A stretch of 64,000 nt of DNA, taken from assembly GCF_025370785.1 (NCBI RefSeq), contig NZ_JAMXFA010000019.1, positions 1-64,000 on the forward strand, given 5' to 3'. Below are positions 57,103 through 63,332 of the stretch, in pieces (the stretch's first letter is position 1; each line of letters opens with the position of its first letter). Position numbers and translations under genes: made by a program. The stretch is from Laspinema olomoucense D3b. Its GTDB lineage: Bacteria > Cyanobacteriota > Cyanobacteriia > Cyanobacteriales > Laspinemataceae. The notes under the pieces are model-generated. The model was not told the DNA's origin. It did not search any database and saw only the letters and a program-made list of their open reading frames with translations.

Positions 57103-58983
57103 TTAGGCATCAATTTCCACGGGACCGACGGGATGGGCGCTACAGGCCAAAATATATCCTTGCTGGCGATCGCGATCGCTCAGGGCCTGGGGTTCATTTT
57201 CGTAGCGAACTTCTCCACTGAGGAGTTTTTGTTTGCAAGTCCCGCAAGTTCCACCCCGGCAACTGCTATCGAGTTCGATTCCTTCTCGTTCAGCAATCTC
57301 TAAAATCGGGGCAGCGTCGTCACAGGAAATAGTTTTACCAGACTTAACAAAGGCGATGACTGCCGGTTGAGTGGATTTGGCGACAAGGGGTTCTAGTGAC
57401 TCTGGTGATCCCCCAGGTGCATCTACAATCCCGTGAGTAATTCCCGGTTTCAGTTTGGCTTCAAACTGCTCAACGAGTAACTGCCGCAAGACGGGTTTAA
57501 GGTCCTCGCAGGGAATCCCCTTTTGAACACAGCTACCCAGGTGAGCATCCTTGCCCACTTTACCGCCCATGTAGAGGTCTACCCCTTCCACGGTTTGTCC
57601 ATTTTTGCGGGTTTTGGTGCCCATCAAGCCAATCTCGGCGACTTGGGGTTGTCCGCAGGAGTTGGGACAGCCAGTCCAGTGAATGCGCACGGTTTTAGGG
57701 ATTTCTAATTCCGCTTCCAGTTCTTGAACTAAGGCTAAGGCGCGATTTTTGGTTTCAATTAAGGCAAAGTTACAGAACTGAGCGCCGGTGCAGGAAACGA
57801 GCGATCGCGTCAGAGGTGCGGGATCAATCCTAAATTTCTCTAAAAGCGGTTCTTGCAACAATGCCTCTAACCGCGAATCGGGAATATTCGGAATGATGAC
57901 ATTTTGTTCCACGGTTAACCGGATCTCACCATTTCCATACACTTCGGCAAGTCTAGCTAACTCAAACATCTCCGGCGCAAACAAGCGACCCACGGGAACA
58001 TTGAACCCCACAAAGTTTAATCCCGCTTGTTTCTGGGGGAAAACTCCCAGATGATCCCGTTTTTCCCAGACAATCTCATCTTTCTCGGCTGCTTCTGCCA
58101 GGGGTTTTCCGACTTCTTGCTCGACTTTGGCCCGGAATTTCTCCACACCCCATTCATCGATCAGCCACATCAAACGAGACTTCTGGCGATTGGCTCTCGG
58201 TCCATGATCTCGGTAAATTTCTAAAATAGCACGGCATAACTCCACCACATCATCATTGGGGGGAACCCACATATTTAGGGGGATCGCCGCTTCACACCGT
58301 TTCGCCGAGAAAAAGCCCCCGACGAGTACGTTAAAGCCAATTTCTCCATTTTTATAAGCCGGAATGAAGGCAATATCATTGATTTCCGCGTGAATGGAAT
58401 TGTCTGGACATCCACCGATCGCAATGTTAAATTTCCTCGGTAAGTTGGAAAAAGCAGGATTACCCTCTCCGGTGTTGGTAATCATATCTTGCACCTTTTG
58501 GACTAACTCTTGAGTATCGATTAACTCATGTTTGTCAATCCCAGAAACCGGAGACCCTGTAATGTTTCTAACGTTATCCATCCCCGACTGCACCGAGGTC
58601 ATCCCCGCTGCTTTAAATCGGTTAAAAATATCGGGAATATCTTCTATTCTGATGCCCCGCAGTTGGAGATTTTGCCTAGTGGTAATATCTGCATTGCCAT
58701 CCTCTCCATACCGCTCTACTATCTCGGCTAGGACTCGCATTTGTAGACTGCTCATGACCCCATGAGGCATCCGCATCCGCACCATGAACTGACCTGGAGT
58801 CACGGGACGAAAGAAGACCCCCAGCCATTTGAGCCGGTAGTCGCGATCGCTCGCATCCATTGCCTCCCAGCCCATTTGAGCAAAATCTTCTAGCTGATTT
58901 TTTACATCAAGTCCATCTTTTTCGGCCTTGATTTTCTCAAATTTATTTAAACTCGTTGTGGGCTTTTCTGTGGCTAACGTCAT
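57103..58983 (-). CDS. nirA: ferredoxin-nitrite reductase with fused C-terminal [2Fe-2S] ferredoxin domain
   Basis: A 626-residue enzyme reducing nitrite to ammonium with six electrons. Residues about 1-530 are a standard nitrite reductase with two half-domains; siroheme/[4Fe-4S] ligand cysteines lie in VSCTGAQFCNF and HWTGCPNSCGQPQ. Residues about 537-626 form a plant-type [2Fe-2S] ferredoxin domain with CRGGTCGTC and a fourth cysteine in YILACSAHP. Most cyanobacterial NirA proteins are about 510 residues; a ferredoxin-like extension is known in some filamentous species such as Plectonema. The added domain may deliver electrons directly. It is the first gene of the nitrate cluster, behind an NtcA-type promoter. 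Confidence 0.96.
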   Translation of the reverse strand: MTLATEKPTTSLNKFEKIKAEKDGLDVKNQLEDFAQMGWEAMDASDRDYRLKWLGVFFRPVTPGQFMVRMRMPHGVMSSLQMRVLAEIVERYGEDGNADITTRQNLQLRGIRIEDIPDIFNRFKAAGMTSVQSGMDNVRNITGSPVSGIDKHELIDTQELVQKVQDMITNTGEGNPAFSNLPRKFNIAIGGCPDNSIHAEINDIAFIPAYKNGEIGFNVLVGGFFSAKRCEAAIPLNMWVPPNDDVVELCRAILEIYRDHGPRANRQKSRLMWLIDEWGVEKFRAKVEQEVGKPLAEAAEKDEIVWEKRDHLGVFPQKQAGLNFVGFNVPVGRLFAPEMFELARLAEVYGNGEIRLTVEQNVIIPNIPDSRLEALLQEPLLEKFRIDPAPLTRSLVSCTGAQFCNFALIETKNRALALVQELEAELEIPKTVRIHWTGCPNSCGQPQVAEIGLMGTKTRKNGQTVEGVDLYMGGKVGKDAHLGSCVQKGIPCEDLKPVLRQLLVEQFEAKLKPGITHGIVDAPGGSPESLEPLVAKSTQPAVIAFVKSGKTISCDDAAPILEIAEREGIELDSSCRGGTCGTCKQKLLSGEVRYENEPQALSDRDRQQGYILACSAHPVGPVEIDA

Positions 58984-59409: not shown

Positions 59410-59465
59410 AACTTGCTGTCCTTCTCTTCCCCGGTTCGGTATCACGACTGGTGGGGTTGCTAAAA

Positions 59466-59501
59466 AAAGAGGGGTCTAGCACTATTGCTAGACCCCTCTT
59501 T
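59466..59501 (-). terminator. perfect intrinsic terminator after the ligase-like coiled-coil gene
   Basis: AAAGAGGGGTCTAGCA (59466-59481) pairs over 16 bases with TGCTAGACCCCTCTTT (59486-59501), loop of four. On the minus strand it is followed by a T7 run (59461-59467 region). It ends the leftward gene whose stop is at 59540. Confidence 0.88.
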
Positions 59502-59539
59502 ATACAATTGCCCTAGAATTACTGGTCAAGGATATAATG

Positions 59540-62077
59540 TTAGTAAATGGCTAAGGCTGAGAACCAGGCAATTAGGGAACCGAAGAGGAACGCTAGAACG
59601 ACTCCTGTTTTTAAGAGGGGAGTTTGCGATCGCACGAGGGCGAGTTGGGATTCTAGCTGCGATCGCTCTTTGTTGGCGGCTTCCAATTGCGATAGCACCT
59701 CCGATCGCTCTCGGTTAGCTTGGGTGACTTGGGATTGAGCGTGGGATTGCTCGTGCAAGACGCGCTGTAATTTATCTTGGGTTTCCGATAAATCCCCCTG
59801 GAGTTGGGACTGTGCTGCCTGGGATTTGCCAAGCTGAGTCTGTAAGTCGGCTCGCTGCTGTTGCGCGCGCTCGTTTTCTGCCTTGATTTGAGCAAGTTCG
59901 GTTTGCAGGTGCGATCGCAGATCTTCTACTCCCAGTAACTGGGTCCGGGTTTCAGAAAGTTGCTGTTGCAAGTCCTGCTTCTCCCCTTCCAGTTGTTGCA
60001 ATCTTTCCCCCCGTTCCTCTAGGTGGGATTGAACCTGCGATCGCTCTTGTTGCACTTGCGCTAACTCAGTTCGCACCTGACTCAGTTGAGAGTCTAATTC
60101 CCCTGAATGCTGTTGCACTTGCGCTAACTCAGTTCGCACCTGATTCAGTTGAGAGTCTAATTCCCCTGAATGCTGTTGCGATTGAGCTAATTCCGTTCGC
60201 ACCTGATTCAGTTGAGAGTCGAGTTCCCCGGAATGTTGATGAGCTTGCGCTAACTCAGTTCGCACTTGAGTCAGTTGAGAATCTAATTCCCCGGAATGCT
60301 GTTGAGCTTGCGCTAACTCAGTTCGCACCTGATTCAGTTGAGAATCTAATTCCCCGGAATGTTGTTGAGCTTGCACTAACTCAGTTCGCACCTGATTCAG
60401 TTGAGAATCTAATTCCCCGGAATGTTGTTGCGATTGCGTTAACTCAGTTCGCACCTGATTCAGTTGGGATTCTAATTTCCCTGAATTTTGATGAGCTTGC
60501 TCTAATTCAGTTCGCACCTGATTCAGTTGGGATTCTAATTTCCCTGAATTTTGATGAGCTTGCTCTAATTCAGTTCGCACCTGATTCAGTTGAGAGTCTA
60601 ATTTCCCTGAATTTTGATGAGCTTGCGTTAACTCAGTTCGCACCTGATTCAGTTGAGAGTCTAATTCCCCTGAATTTTGATGAGCTTGCGTTAACTCAGT
60701 TCGCACCTGATTCAGTTGGGATTCTAATTCCCCTGAATGTTGTTGCGATCGCCTTAACTCGGTTTGGAGTTCTTCAGTCCGGCGAGTAGAAGATTCTAAC
60801 GCAGACTGAATTTCCTGTAATTGAGCATTTAATTGAGCCGTTTGCTCCTGAGCTTGGGTGAGTTCGGTGTTCTTTTGAGCCAGTTCCGACTCCAGGGACA
60901 CTGATTGATTCGCCTGTGCCAACTGCTGCCGACTTTCTTCTAGTTCCGATTGGAGTTGCGCCGTTTGTTGTTCCGCCCGTTCTAGCTGGGTCCGAATCTC
61001 GTCTAACTCCGATTGCAATGGACCCGAAGGGGGAGTGGCTTGCTCTAAATCCGATTGTAATTGAGCCTTGGGTTCAGTGGCGGGCTGTAATTCTGGAGCA
61101 GTCGCATCCTGAGACTGTTTATAAGCGGGGGTTTCTGAGGGAGAAGGAGCAGGCATGACAACGGGTTCTTTGTCGGGGGGTGCAACGGAGGGTTGGACCT
61201 GCTGGGTCGCCGTTTCTGGGGCGACGGGGACAGCGAGGATTGCCGGTAATGCCACGGAGGGGAGTTGCAACCCGGCAGCGGATAAGCGATCAATTAAGGT
61301 TTGATTGGCCTGAATCCGGAACCAGGAATAGACAGACTGGGCGGTTTCGGGGTTAATGCCTTCAATGGCTTCTAGTTCGGCGATTTCAGCTTTGGCGAGG
61401 TCTCCGACGGTGGCAAAAGCGTGGGTGAGTAGTTGCGCGGTGGTCCGACCGACTTGGCGGATGCCCAAACTGGCGAGGACTCTGGACCAGGGGAGGGATT
61501 TGGATTTGGCGATCGCCTTGAGCAGGTTTTTCGCGGATTTTTTCCCCATCTGTTCCAGGGTGCTCAGTTGGTCGGCGTTGAGTTCGTACAAGTCGGCAAC
61601 GGATTTAACCAGTCCCTGTTGGATGAGTTCGTATGCCTGTTTTTCTCCCAATCCGCTAATTTCCATTGCATCTCGGCTGGCCCAATTGAGCAGGCTGTAG
61701 GGAAGAATGGGCGCACAGGAGGAATTAATGCAGCTCATTTCATTCTCGGCGGTCCGGATGACCGGCGATCGGCATTCTGGGCAGTGGGTGGGCATTTTAA
61801 AGGGTTGACTGCTGGAAGACCGTTCTTCTGCAATGACTCCCACGACTTCCGCCATTTTGTCGGTTCCCCCATGACACAGGAGTAGGGTATCGCCGATTTG
61901 GGGGTTTAACTCGGTGAAGCGATCGCTGCCGAGGAAGGTGGCGTATTCGATTTTAGTACCTCCTACCTCGACGGGTGCAATCTGGGCGATGGGGGTCAAA
62001 TGGCCGTTGCGTTCAACTTTAATTTTTATTGCTTCGATCTGCGCTCGGACTTCTTTTGTGGTAATATCGGTCGTCAC
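59540..62077 (-). CDS. LigA-derived OB/Zn-finger/HhH module fused to a repeat coiled coil with C-terminal membrane anchor
   Basis: An 845-residue protein with an unusual architecture. Residues about 24-85 match the OB domain of NAD-dependent DNA ligase (GHLTPIAQIAPVEVGGTKIE), 97-123 its four-cysteine zinc finger (C99, C102, C116, C121), and 130-270 its helix-hairpin-helix domain (DAMEISGLGEKQAYELI, LASLGIRQVGRTTA). The adenylation domain with the KxDG lysine is absent, so it cannot ligate DNA. After a Pro/Gln-rich linker, a coiled coil runs from about 350 to 815 and includes eleven near-identical 21-residue repeats. The final 22 residues (TGVVLAFLFGSLIAWFSALA) are hydrophobic: a tail anchor. 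The GTG start has AGAGGAGGT eight bases upstream. Linking DNA to a membrane is inference. Confidence 0.85.
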   Translation of the reverse strand: MTTDITTKEVRAQIEAIKIKVERNGHLTPIAQIAPVEVGGTKIEYATFLGSDRFTELNPQIGDTLLLCHGGTDKMAEVVGVIAEERSSSSQPFKMPTHCPECRSPVIRTAENEMSCINSSCAPILPYSLLNWASRDAMEISGLGEKQAYELIQQGLVKSVADLYELNADQLSTLEQMGKKSAKNLLKAIAKSKSLPWSRVLASLGIRQVGRTTAQLLTHAFATVGDLAKAEIAELEAIEGINPETAQSVYSWFRIQANQTLIDRLSAAGLQLPSVALPAILAVPVAPETATQQVQPSVAPPDKEPVVMPAPSPSETPAYKQSQDATAPELQPATEPKAQLQSDLEQATPPSGPLQSELDEIRTQLERAEQQTAQLQSELEESRQQLAQANQSVSLESELAQKNTELTQAQEQTAQLNAQLQEIQSALESSTRRTEELQTELRRSQQHSGELESQLNQVRTELTQAHQNSGELDSQLNQVRTELTQAHQNSGKLDSQLNQVRTELEQAHQNSGKLESQLNQVRTELEQAHQNSGKLESQLNQVRTELTQSQQHSGELDSQLNQVRTELVQAQQHSGELDSQLNQVRTELAQAQQHSGELDSQLTQVRTELAQAHQHSGELDSQLNQVRTELAQSQQHSGELDSQLNQVRTELAQVQQHSGELDSQLSQVRTELAQVQQERSQVQSHLEERGERLQQLEGEKQDLQQQLSETRTQLLGVEDLRSHLQTELAQIKAENERAQQQRADLQTQLGKSQAAQSQLQGDLSETQDKLQRVLHEQSHAQSQVTQANRERSEVLSQLEAANKERSQLESQLALVRSQTPLLKTGVVLAFLFGSLIAWFSALAIY
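60044..60736 (-). repeat. eleven 63-bp in-frame repeats in the coiled-coil gene
   Basis: Eleven consecutive copies of 63 bases encode SGELDSQLNQVRTELAQAQQ-like 21-residue units. Adjacent units differ at few positions, including silent ones, which points to recent expansion or ongoing homogenisation. The 21-residue period equals three heptads, so copy number can change without breaking the coiled-coil register. Confidence 0.9.
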
Positions 62078-62396
62078 TTCTTTTTACCTCCTCTAATCGT
62101 TTTCTTTATTGGTTAACCTTGAGGATCATCCTCGGGTGATCGGGGATCGACGCTAAACTATTAAGTTTGGCATAGAAAAAACTATTTTAATTGAAAACTG
62201 GGTGGCTTCTAAGTCCCCAAAAGAATAAAAATAGACGCCTATTCTATTTTGCCACCAACCTGCTCGCTTAAATCCACAGAAACTACAGGGGGGATAAGTG
62301 GCGATTCTGTTGGTAGGGGCGCTTATGCTGGGAAGGGGGGAAGAGGGAGAGAGGCGAGGGAGAAGGGTTTCGGGGGTTGAATCCAGGACGATCTAC
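62078..62396. other. gene-free gap upstream of the ligase-like gene
   Basis: The 319 bases hold the ribosome-binding site of the leftward gene (AGGAGGT complement at about 62086-62092), an imperfect inverted repeat around 62124-62150 (GATCATCCTCGGGTGATC region), and an AT-rich stretch at 62158-62250 that could carry its promoter. No gene is visible. Confidence 0.5.
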
Positions 62397-63308
62397 CTAC
62401 CGATCCCTCCCGAATGGATCATTCTGCTGACTTCGGGGCAGTTCCTGAACCGAGGTGAGTTCGGGTGGGGATTTTAATTGTTGCTTTAACTGGTTGATCT
62501 CGCGGGAGAGTCGGGAGATGTCTTCATAGAGGGAGGCGATCGCTTCTGTCTGTTGCATTTGATTTAAACTATCGCTCAACCGGGCGACGATGCGGCTTAA
62601 TTTAGATAGTTGGGCCATTTCCGGTCGGGAATTAAACTTTTGAGTGAGGGTATCCACCTTCCGGGTAAGAATCAGATCGGTATGTTGTAACTTTTGAATT
62701 TCCCCTTCCAATTGCTGAAGGTACGGAGAGAGGACCTCGCGGCGATCGGCTTCGACTTGCAAAATTTGACGATGCAGTTTCTCAAACTCTTGCAAATCGA
62801 TAATCGGGCGTTGCGCTAAAAATTGGACGGCTACATTCAATGAGGCAATTTTGGCTTCAAACCGGGTTAGATCAAAAGGTTCGGTAAAGTCAGAAATTTG
62901 TTTTTGCAGGGCTTCAATTTTTAAACTTAAGTTATCATAAACTTTTGAGGTCATAAAGGCTGCTTTGCCCTCAATCATGGTTACGGATTTATTCAGTTTG
63001 GATAATTCTTCATGCACTTCTGTTAAATTAATGGTAACTGGCTCAGGGAGAGCTTTTAACTGTCGGTCTAATTCTGACAATTTTAGGTCGATTTCAGAAA
63101 TAACGGAGGGGATTTTCTCTTCGTGAAGTCCCTCTCGACGTTTTTGGTTAATAAAATTTAGCCAGAGGGCAAGGGTTACTGGGGCGGCGGCGTAGGCAGC
63201 CTGTTTGGCGATCGCTGCTGCCACCGTCCCGGCCAGGGACCCAACTAATAACAGAAGTTCTGTTATTTCAAGCCAATGATGCGGTTTGACAAGTTGCCTA
63301 AATTGCAT
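62397..63308 (-). CDS. membrane-anchored coiled-coil protein, unrecognised
   Basis: A protein of about 303 residues. After MQFRQLVKPHHWLEITE come two close hydrophobic segments (LLLLVGSLAGTVAAAIA and AAAPVTLALWLNFI), then about 240 residues of predicted coiled coil and helices (SEIDLKLSELDRQLKALPEP, IEALQKQISDF) ending in a polar tail. Similar proteins, with a membrane hairpin followed by a coiled coil, occur in many cyanobacteria without assigned function. The ATG at 63308 has GGGAG about eight bases upstream; in-frame ATGs at 63332 and 63449 are possible but lack a good site. It lies upstream of, and on the same strand as, the ligase-like coiled-coil gene. Confidence 0.72.
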   Translation of the reverse strand: MQFRQLVKPHHWLEITELLLLVGSLAGTVAAAIAKQAAYAAAPVTLALWLNFINQKRREGLHEEKIPSVISEIDLKLSELDRQLKALPEPVTINLTEVHEELSKLNKSVTMIEGKAAFMTSKVYDNLSLKIEALQKQISDFTEPFDLTRFEAKIASLNVAVQFLAQRPIIDLQEFEKLHRQILQVEADRREVLSPYLQQLEGEIQKLQHTDLILTRKVDTLTQKFNSRPEMAQLSKLSRIVARLSDSLNQMQQTEAIASLYEDISRLSREINQLKQQLKSPPELTSVQELPRSQQNDPFGRDR

Positions 63309-63332
63309 GAGTAGATGCTCCCGCTTTGACAT

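Follow-up and report, generated by a model that had tools for sequence, protein, structure and literature searches.

The 64,000-nucleotide stretch of Laspinema olomoucense D3b DNA that was analysed (the window) contains a gene for an 845-aa protein in which the OB, zinc-finger and HhH domains of NAD-dependent DNA ligase (LigA), without the adenylation domain, are joined to a long predicted coiled-coil rod and a C-terminal hydrophobic tail. We give an even chance to the reading that this half of a ligase has been domesticated as the DNA-binding head of a tail-anchored rod, which would tether DNA to a membrane. The parts of this reading that rest on computation, namely the fold, the layout, the grouping of all copies in one clade, the purifying selection and the conservation of the hydrophobic tail, are supported by the results below.

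Layout of the gene and its product

The gene is an open reading frame on the minus strand (59540..62077) with a GTG start codon, 8 nt ahead of which a Shine-Dalgarno-like GAGGAGGT could be read off the sequence (62086..62093, minus strand). A terminator-like hairpin with a T run lies 38 nt past the stop codon (59462..59501, minus strand); folding of the RNA from 59455-59515 gave -29.5 kcal/mol (z -5.9), and the hairpin is absent from the list of the consensus scan. On the same strand, the protein divides into an OB-fold domain (residues 12-89; 61811..62044), a four-cysteine zinc finger (residues 99-121; 61715..61783), an HhH domain (residues 125-267; 61277..61705, from Pfam, residue mapping and the model), a proline-rich linker (residues ~275-353; 61019..61255, with 14 prolines within residues 276-345), a proline-free coiled-coil rod (residues 354-819; 59621..61018) and a transmembrane tail, assigned by hydropathy and conservation (residues 824-845; 59543..59608).

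For the head, Pfam matched DNA_ligase_OB (PF03120) at residues 12-89 (E 1.4e-18), HHH_5 at 135-190 and HHH_2 at 199-262, all above curated cut-offs. The 25 of 60 Pfam matches listed for the protein are mostly coiled-coil families, and neither the adenylation (NTase) domain PF01653 nor DUF536 is among them. The NCBIfam LigA models match residues 7-334 solely via their second half (model positions ~304-579 of 652-664), and phmmer against the PDB aligned LigA structures over residues 7-274, with E values down to 6.6e-44. An AlphaFold2 model of residues 1-278, made with 41 aligned sequences, had a pLDDT of 89.3. Foldseek matched it to LigA of E. coli (5tt5, TMq 0.90, 2.0 A) and of D. radiodurans (8ak4, TMq 0.86), the DNA-bound structure 2owo being matched more weakly as a single rigid body (TMq 0.56, 7.6 A). 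Cysteines 99, 102, 116 and 121 are invariant in all nine heads found and in the 41 rows of alignment A2. Ligase families of PHROGs match the head as well, the PHROG 'NAD-dependent DNA ligase' (256 positions) covering its zinc-finger and HhH part; PADLOC gave no match for it. By Pfam, NCBIfam, PDB, model and Foldseek, the OB fold, Cys4 zinc finger and HhH motifs are all present in LigA order. An earlier note on this DNA had recognised these three LigA domains in 59540-62077, on which Pfam, PDB and Foldseek agree, and had proposed a comparison with LigA structures, where PDB sequence matches and Foldseek both returned LigA.

The 466 residues of the rod contain no proline. In a heptad scan, their mean core contrast was 0.71, against 0.32 +/- 0.02 in 200 shuffles, and a single register runs from ~386 to 806, save for one scan position (715) preferring another phase. 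Within the rod lie eleven units of 21 aa (63 bp), each made of three heptads (residues 448-678; 60044..60736, minus strand, from repeat analyses); TRF counted 11.1 copies of the 63-bp unit. The final 22 residues of the protein are hydrophobic, with a Kyte-Doolittle peak of 2.38 over 19 residues, for which the usual threshold is 1.6. Heptads and hydropathy together predict a coiled-coil spacer and a C-terminal membrane anchor, and the long repeat coiled coil with a hydrophobic tail that the earlier note described was recovered by heptad scan, TRF and hydropathy alike. A second hydrophobic stretch occurs here at residues 265-283 (1.69 over 19 residues); in G009, a carrier from another genus, the best value outside the tail is only 0.86, and this stretch is not kept.

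With a looser motif, the unit counts in G000 (this genome), G003, G007, G004 and G002 were 11, 11, 11, 11 and 10, in unbroken 21-aa spacing and omitting one stray match in G004; with a stricter motif they were 11, 9, 11, 10 and 10. Units are more alike within G000 (0.88) and G004 (0.90) than are units of the same index across genomes (0.80 to 0.86), while in G003 and G007 the within-genome likeness is not so clearly above that between genomes (these four genomes were compared, the ten-unit G002 being left out). That the repeat number is under length selection is only a suggestion.

Missing half, retained residues and origin of the head

The earlier note held that the adenylation domain is missing. 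This agrees with the Pfam matches listed and with a tblastn search in which the N-terminal part of the genome's own LigA revealed no relic nearby: the best E value against the window region and the neighbourhoods of eight relatives was only 1.1. The single PF01653 match of this genome lies in an intact LigA encoded on contig C18, the complete ligA that the note had hoped to find elsewhere. PF01653 was matched exactly once in every one of the nine carrier genomes, in a frame of LigA length, and a separate adenylation subunit was therefore found in none of them. All 14 genomes of the family have one LigA frame with PF01653, reported for G011 and G012 as two pieces of one frame. As judged from its sequence, the 845-aa protein would not qualify as an active NAD-dependent ligase, for which PF01653 and its active-site lysine are diagnostic. 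The open frame of the genome's own LigA (locus L001, near 14196-14951 on C18) opens with tandem PPFPRGAFQ-like repeats, which probably lie upstream of the true LigA start.

Of the 67 columns conserved at 95% or more in LigA, all nine copies retain 40 and have lost 12; the other 15 are mixed. Eight of the 12 lost columns belong to the OB domain, where they fall within GRTG and RATLHN or just ahead of RATLHN. GRTG has lost its first G and its T, most of RATLHN has changed, and R379 has become H or A. Of the OB residues that we take to be important in LigA, R333 survives in eight of the nine heads and I384 in one; T334, R379 and V383 are gone from all nine. The OB domain has probably given up its role in ligation, and given that eight of the 12 losses are located there, DNA binding would have to come from the HhH part.

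In E. coli LigA, the HhH residues R446, G455, R487, G489, G521 and G553 are reported to be essential, R446 for contact with the NTase domain and the other five for DNA binding (PMC8123306). The glycines of hairpins 1 to 3 (G455, G489 and G521, mapped by PDB alignment) are kept in all nine heads, as is R446; R487 is kept in eight and is a Q in this genome, and G553, the essential glycine of hairpin 4, is kept in none. For the D. radiodurans enzyme, the catalytic site and the HhH DNA-binding site, which is the non-catalytic one, are described as acting independently, the HhH motifs gripping both strands in the minor groove and the OB domain binding the strand opposite the nick (PMC10504179). Read residue by residue, most of the non-catalytic grip is retained in the heads and the catalytic face has been left to drift. 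The net charge of the heads is -3 to -7 (mean of LigA heads -1.7, sd 2.8; this genome's own LigA module, -3), and that of the protein outside the head is -26 to -53, three incomplete copies included.

In a tree of the nine heads and 115 LigA modules, the heads form a single clade (100/99) inside cyanobacterial LigA; its exact place there is less certain, the stem being long, the neighbouring forks weak, and the program warning that long branches meet. The tree argues for descent of the head from a cyanobacterial LigA, and the shared layout is independent support for a single origin. The dN/dS ratio was 0.07 to 0.44 for the head (28 pairs, codons 2-275) and 0.17 to 0.27 for the C-terminal 140 codons (10 pairs); over the last 26 codons, any two of the five complete genes differ by at most one amino acid. 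By these sequence comparisons, the gene is under purifying selection and maintained. A decayed ligA pseudogene was considered and ruled out, dN/dS being below 0.45 in all 38 comparisons and no adenylation relic being present.

Distribution and neighbouring gene

The head is found as a second copy beside LigA in nine of the 14 family genomes, that is, in all eight of the genus Laspinema and in G009; the remaining five are without it. The gene is complete in five genus genomes, where it encodes 845, 846, 846, 846 and 825 aa, the 825-aa protein having one unit fewer (for G004, with a listed ORF of 881 aa, the inner start aligning with the others was used, giving 846 aa). Incomplete copies either run off contig ends (G001 and G005) or hold a stretch of N (G006). 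The G009 protein has 834 aa and an identity of 38% along its entire length down to the tail; its rod is devoid of the 21-aa repeat. Independent genomes carry the same layout, which rules out an assembly or annotation artefact: the false join near codon 275 that worried the earlier note is not borne out, and the layout, which according to that note might have been absent from all relatives, is present among them.

From a scan of 238 relatives the 80 best were retained, and five of these matched at 88 to 92%: Laspinema palackyanum D2a, Laspinema sp. D2d, Phormidium pseudopriestleyi FRX01, Oscillatoria sp. HE19RPO and an Oscillatoria MAG. The other 75 loci reached at most 52%, with a LigA-like length upstream except at L106 (split) and L111 (contig end). 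Eighteen of 142 loci retrieved had fewer than 250 aa upstream of the match; 15 of these are the present gene (some genomes being counted repeatedly), L025 and L106 are split-like and L111 is cut at a contig end, while the other 124 loci were called LigA on length. At L025 and L106 the adenylation part adjoins the OB-HhH part in separate open frames, and both look like split LigA.

In a sample of 386 genomes from the phylum, 368 gave matches at E <= 1e-20, with two matches each in this genome and in the distant G083 and G185. The gene itself was seen only in this genome of the 386, in a search that scored at most the six best first-look candidates per genome and listed none below that E value, so that weak copies could be missed. 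The last 131 residues, searched against 148 genomes of the order, matched strongly in five genus members and weakly in three further genomes (E 2e-10 to 9e-6). As far as sampled, the layout appears to be confined to one cyanobacterial family.

Upstream of the rod gene lies a gene for a 311-aa protein (62397..63332, minus strand) with a hydrophobic hairpin, seen by eye, and predicted helices, which is a possible partner. The neighbourhoods compared within the genus say little about this, because they are syntenic; the gap between the two genes is 317 to 319 bp in seven of the eight genus genomes and 658 bp in G001. No promoter-like site was found in the gap by the consensus scan, which gave one site overall against 3.9 in shuffles. 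In G009 too a homologue (36% identity), that genome's best match to the 311-aa protein, is located upstream of the rod gene, and no other reference gene was found near the rod gene there. The 311-aa family occurs in 53 of the 148 order genomes (E <= 1e-8), and homologues are found in the five family genomes lacking the rod gene, so the link to the rod gene is suggestive only; by eye, a rod-like ORF is absent from the neighbourhoods of four homologues (G008, G010, G012 and G013, that of G010 running off the contig). A partnership of the two proteins is plausible from this arrangement. The model of the 311-aa protein is of low confidence (pLDDT 55.3), none of the Pfam matches listed for it (25 of 28) is above cut-off, and PADLOC gave one weak MukB-like coiled-coil match. 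Its paralogous family is large, with up to seven matches per genome and some open frames above 1000 aa, and in two related genomes a homologue is broken by one TAA (G012:C1:2194244-2195109 and G011:C159:79617-80470). The window also holds, at 57103-58983, a ferredoxin-nitrite reductase to which a C-terminal 2Fe-2S ferredoxin domain is fused (Fer2 548-618).

A possible membrane-DNA tether and its rivals

As a tether, the protein would have arisen when a cyanobacterial ligA copy shed its NAD-binding and adenylation half and its BRCT end, and the remaining OB-Zn-HhH half gained a proline-rich hinge followed by a long coiled coil and a tail anchor. The tail would insert in the plasma or thylakoid membrane, the head remaining cytoplasmic. 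The rod may dimerise, making of its 466 residues a spacer of ~70 nm at the coiled-coil rise of 0.1485 nm per residue, and the paired heads would hold duplex DNA via the minor groove through hairpins 1 to 3, showing little if any preference for sequence. Nucleoid and membrane would in this way be flexibly linked, perhaps in concert with the adjacent membrane coiled-coil protein.

Such a tether had been proposed in the earlier note. Its layout proved right and the gene is maintained, which makes a tether the most natural reading; the DNA grip that it requires fares less well, the OB domain being eroded and the hairpin 4 glycine lost in all nine heads. The predicted fold and homology, the three glycines kept and the retention of the non-catalytic DNA-binding half support the tether, as does the fact that head, rod and tail are kept together in G009; by analogy, so does RocS, which has the same order of parts. 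Against it stand the hairpin 4 loss and the Q at R487 in this genome, the slightly acidic head with its strongly acidic remainder, and the narrow distribution. The head charge would be no help to DNA binding, though the genome's own LigA module has the same -3. The retention of R446 also counts against a tether, as in LigA this residue contacts the NTase domain missing here, and a pure DNA grip would not explain it. Four ParB_N matches were found in this genome, and lack of ParB is therefore no argument for a tether.

The strongest rival makes of the protein a cytoskeletal or scaffold element anchored in the membrane. Its head would have become a protein-docking module and ceased to bind DNA, and its rod would form filaments or a mesh at the cell cortex, perhaps jointly with the neighbour. 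The eroded OB face and hairpin 4, the acidity of head and rod and the linked membrane coiled-coil gene in G009 would all fit, and cyanobacteria are reported to have coiled-coil-rich proteins that form filaments (PMC7766704); however, docking alone would not obviously need the hairpin 1 to 3 glycines of all nine heads or the mostly kept zinc-finger and HhH columns, and we regard this rival as possible but rather unlikely. The retention of OB, zinc finger and HhH as one module, from an enzyme that grips nicked duplex, would suit a membrane-located sensor or recruiter for DNA with nicks or gaps, or else a regulator competing with LigA for nicks. This seems improbable, since the OB domain, which binds the strand opposite the nick in LigA (PMC10504179), is precisely the most eroded part.

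An HhH domain with a membrane anchor could also belong to a receptor for DNA uptake or export at the envelope, and in this genome the hydrophobic stretch at residues 265-283 might be counted in its favour. The comparison would be with ComEA, another membrane-anchored HhH protein. We consider it very improbable: the N-terminus is without a hydrophobic signal, residues 265-283 span the junction of HhH part and linker and are not kept in G009, and with an anchor at the C-terminal tail the head should be cytoplasmic. Scarcely credible is a non-catalytic subunit of a two-part ligase with its adenylation subunit in trans. Split ligases do exist, as in the heterodimeric ligase of phage PR1 (PDB 9hu3 and 9i5i), the subunit B of which is likewise Zn-HhH-like and encoded apart from the adenylation part, according to the PDB titles, and the 256-position PHROG matches just this part of the head; but subunit B belongs to a two-subunit enzyme, whereas no second NTase domain was found in the genome of the rod protein, the sole PF01653 match of every carrier lies in a LigA-length frame, and the OB residues are lost.

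To return to the tether, the rod protein would be a membrane-DNA linker of a known kind but of unusual parentage, in a narrow lineage, a view that is partly supported. We put forward more tentatively, as somewhat doubtful, a new manner of fixing chromosomes to membranes, in which a ligase stripped of catalysis would grip the DNA from the end of a rod whose length hardly varies (four of the five complete genus genes have eleven 21-aa units and the fifth has ten), in a two-gene unit with the membrane coiled-coil protein, perhaps at the thylakoid. To our knowledge, the holding and distribution of chromosomes in filamentous cyanobacteria are poorly known. If true, the tether would be a single-gene candidate whose DNA contacts are predictable residue by residue from LigA structures, making anchoring testable, and a clear case of a replication enzyme stripped of catalysis and recycled as a structural part.

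A search of the open-access literature, subscription papers being outside its scope, turned up no description of this layout, and no paper on sll1583, an annotated Synechocystis ligase homologue. Over residues 7-274, the head resembles the OB-Zn-HhH part of LigA in sequence, predicted fold and domain order; the whole protein differs from LigA in the absence of the Ia/NTase half and of BRCT, in the erosion of the OB domain and hairpin 4, and in the added rod and tail. RocS of Streptococcus pneumoniae is described as having an N-terminal DNA-binding domain, a coiled coil and a C-terminal membrane helix, as binding membrane and nucleoid, and as tolerating a swapped membrane anchor (PMC11500499). 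Likened by that description, the two proteins share the order of parts, but RocS combines a winged-HTH head with a DUF and an amphipathic helix (PMC11500499), and no winged-HTH head was found in the rod protein, whose head is that of LigA by Pfam, model and Foldseek. In plant plastids, MFP1, which is filament-like, and PEND are likewise proposed as nucleoid anchors, to the thylakoid and the envelope membrane respectively; the likeness is again one of description, the DNA-binding part of PEND being a bZIP and both proteins being listed for flowering plants (PMC4154389).
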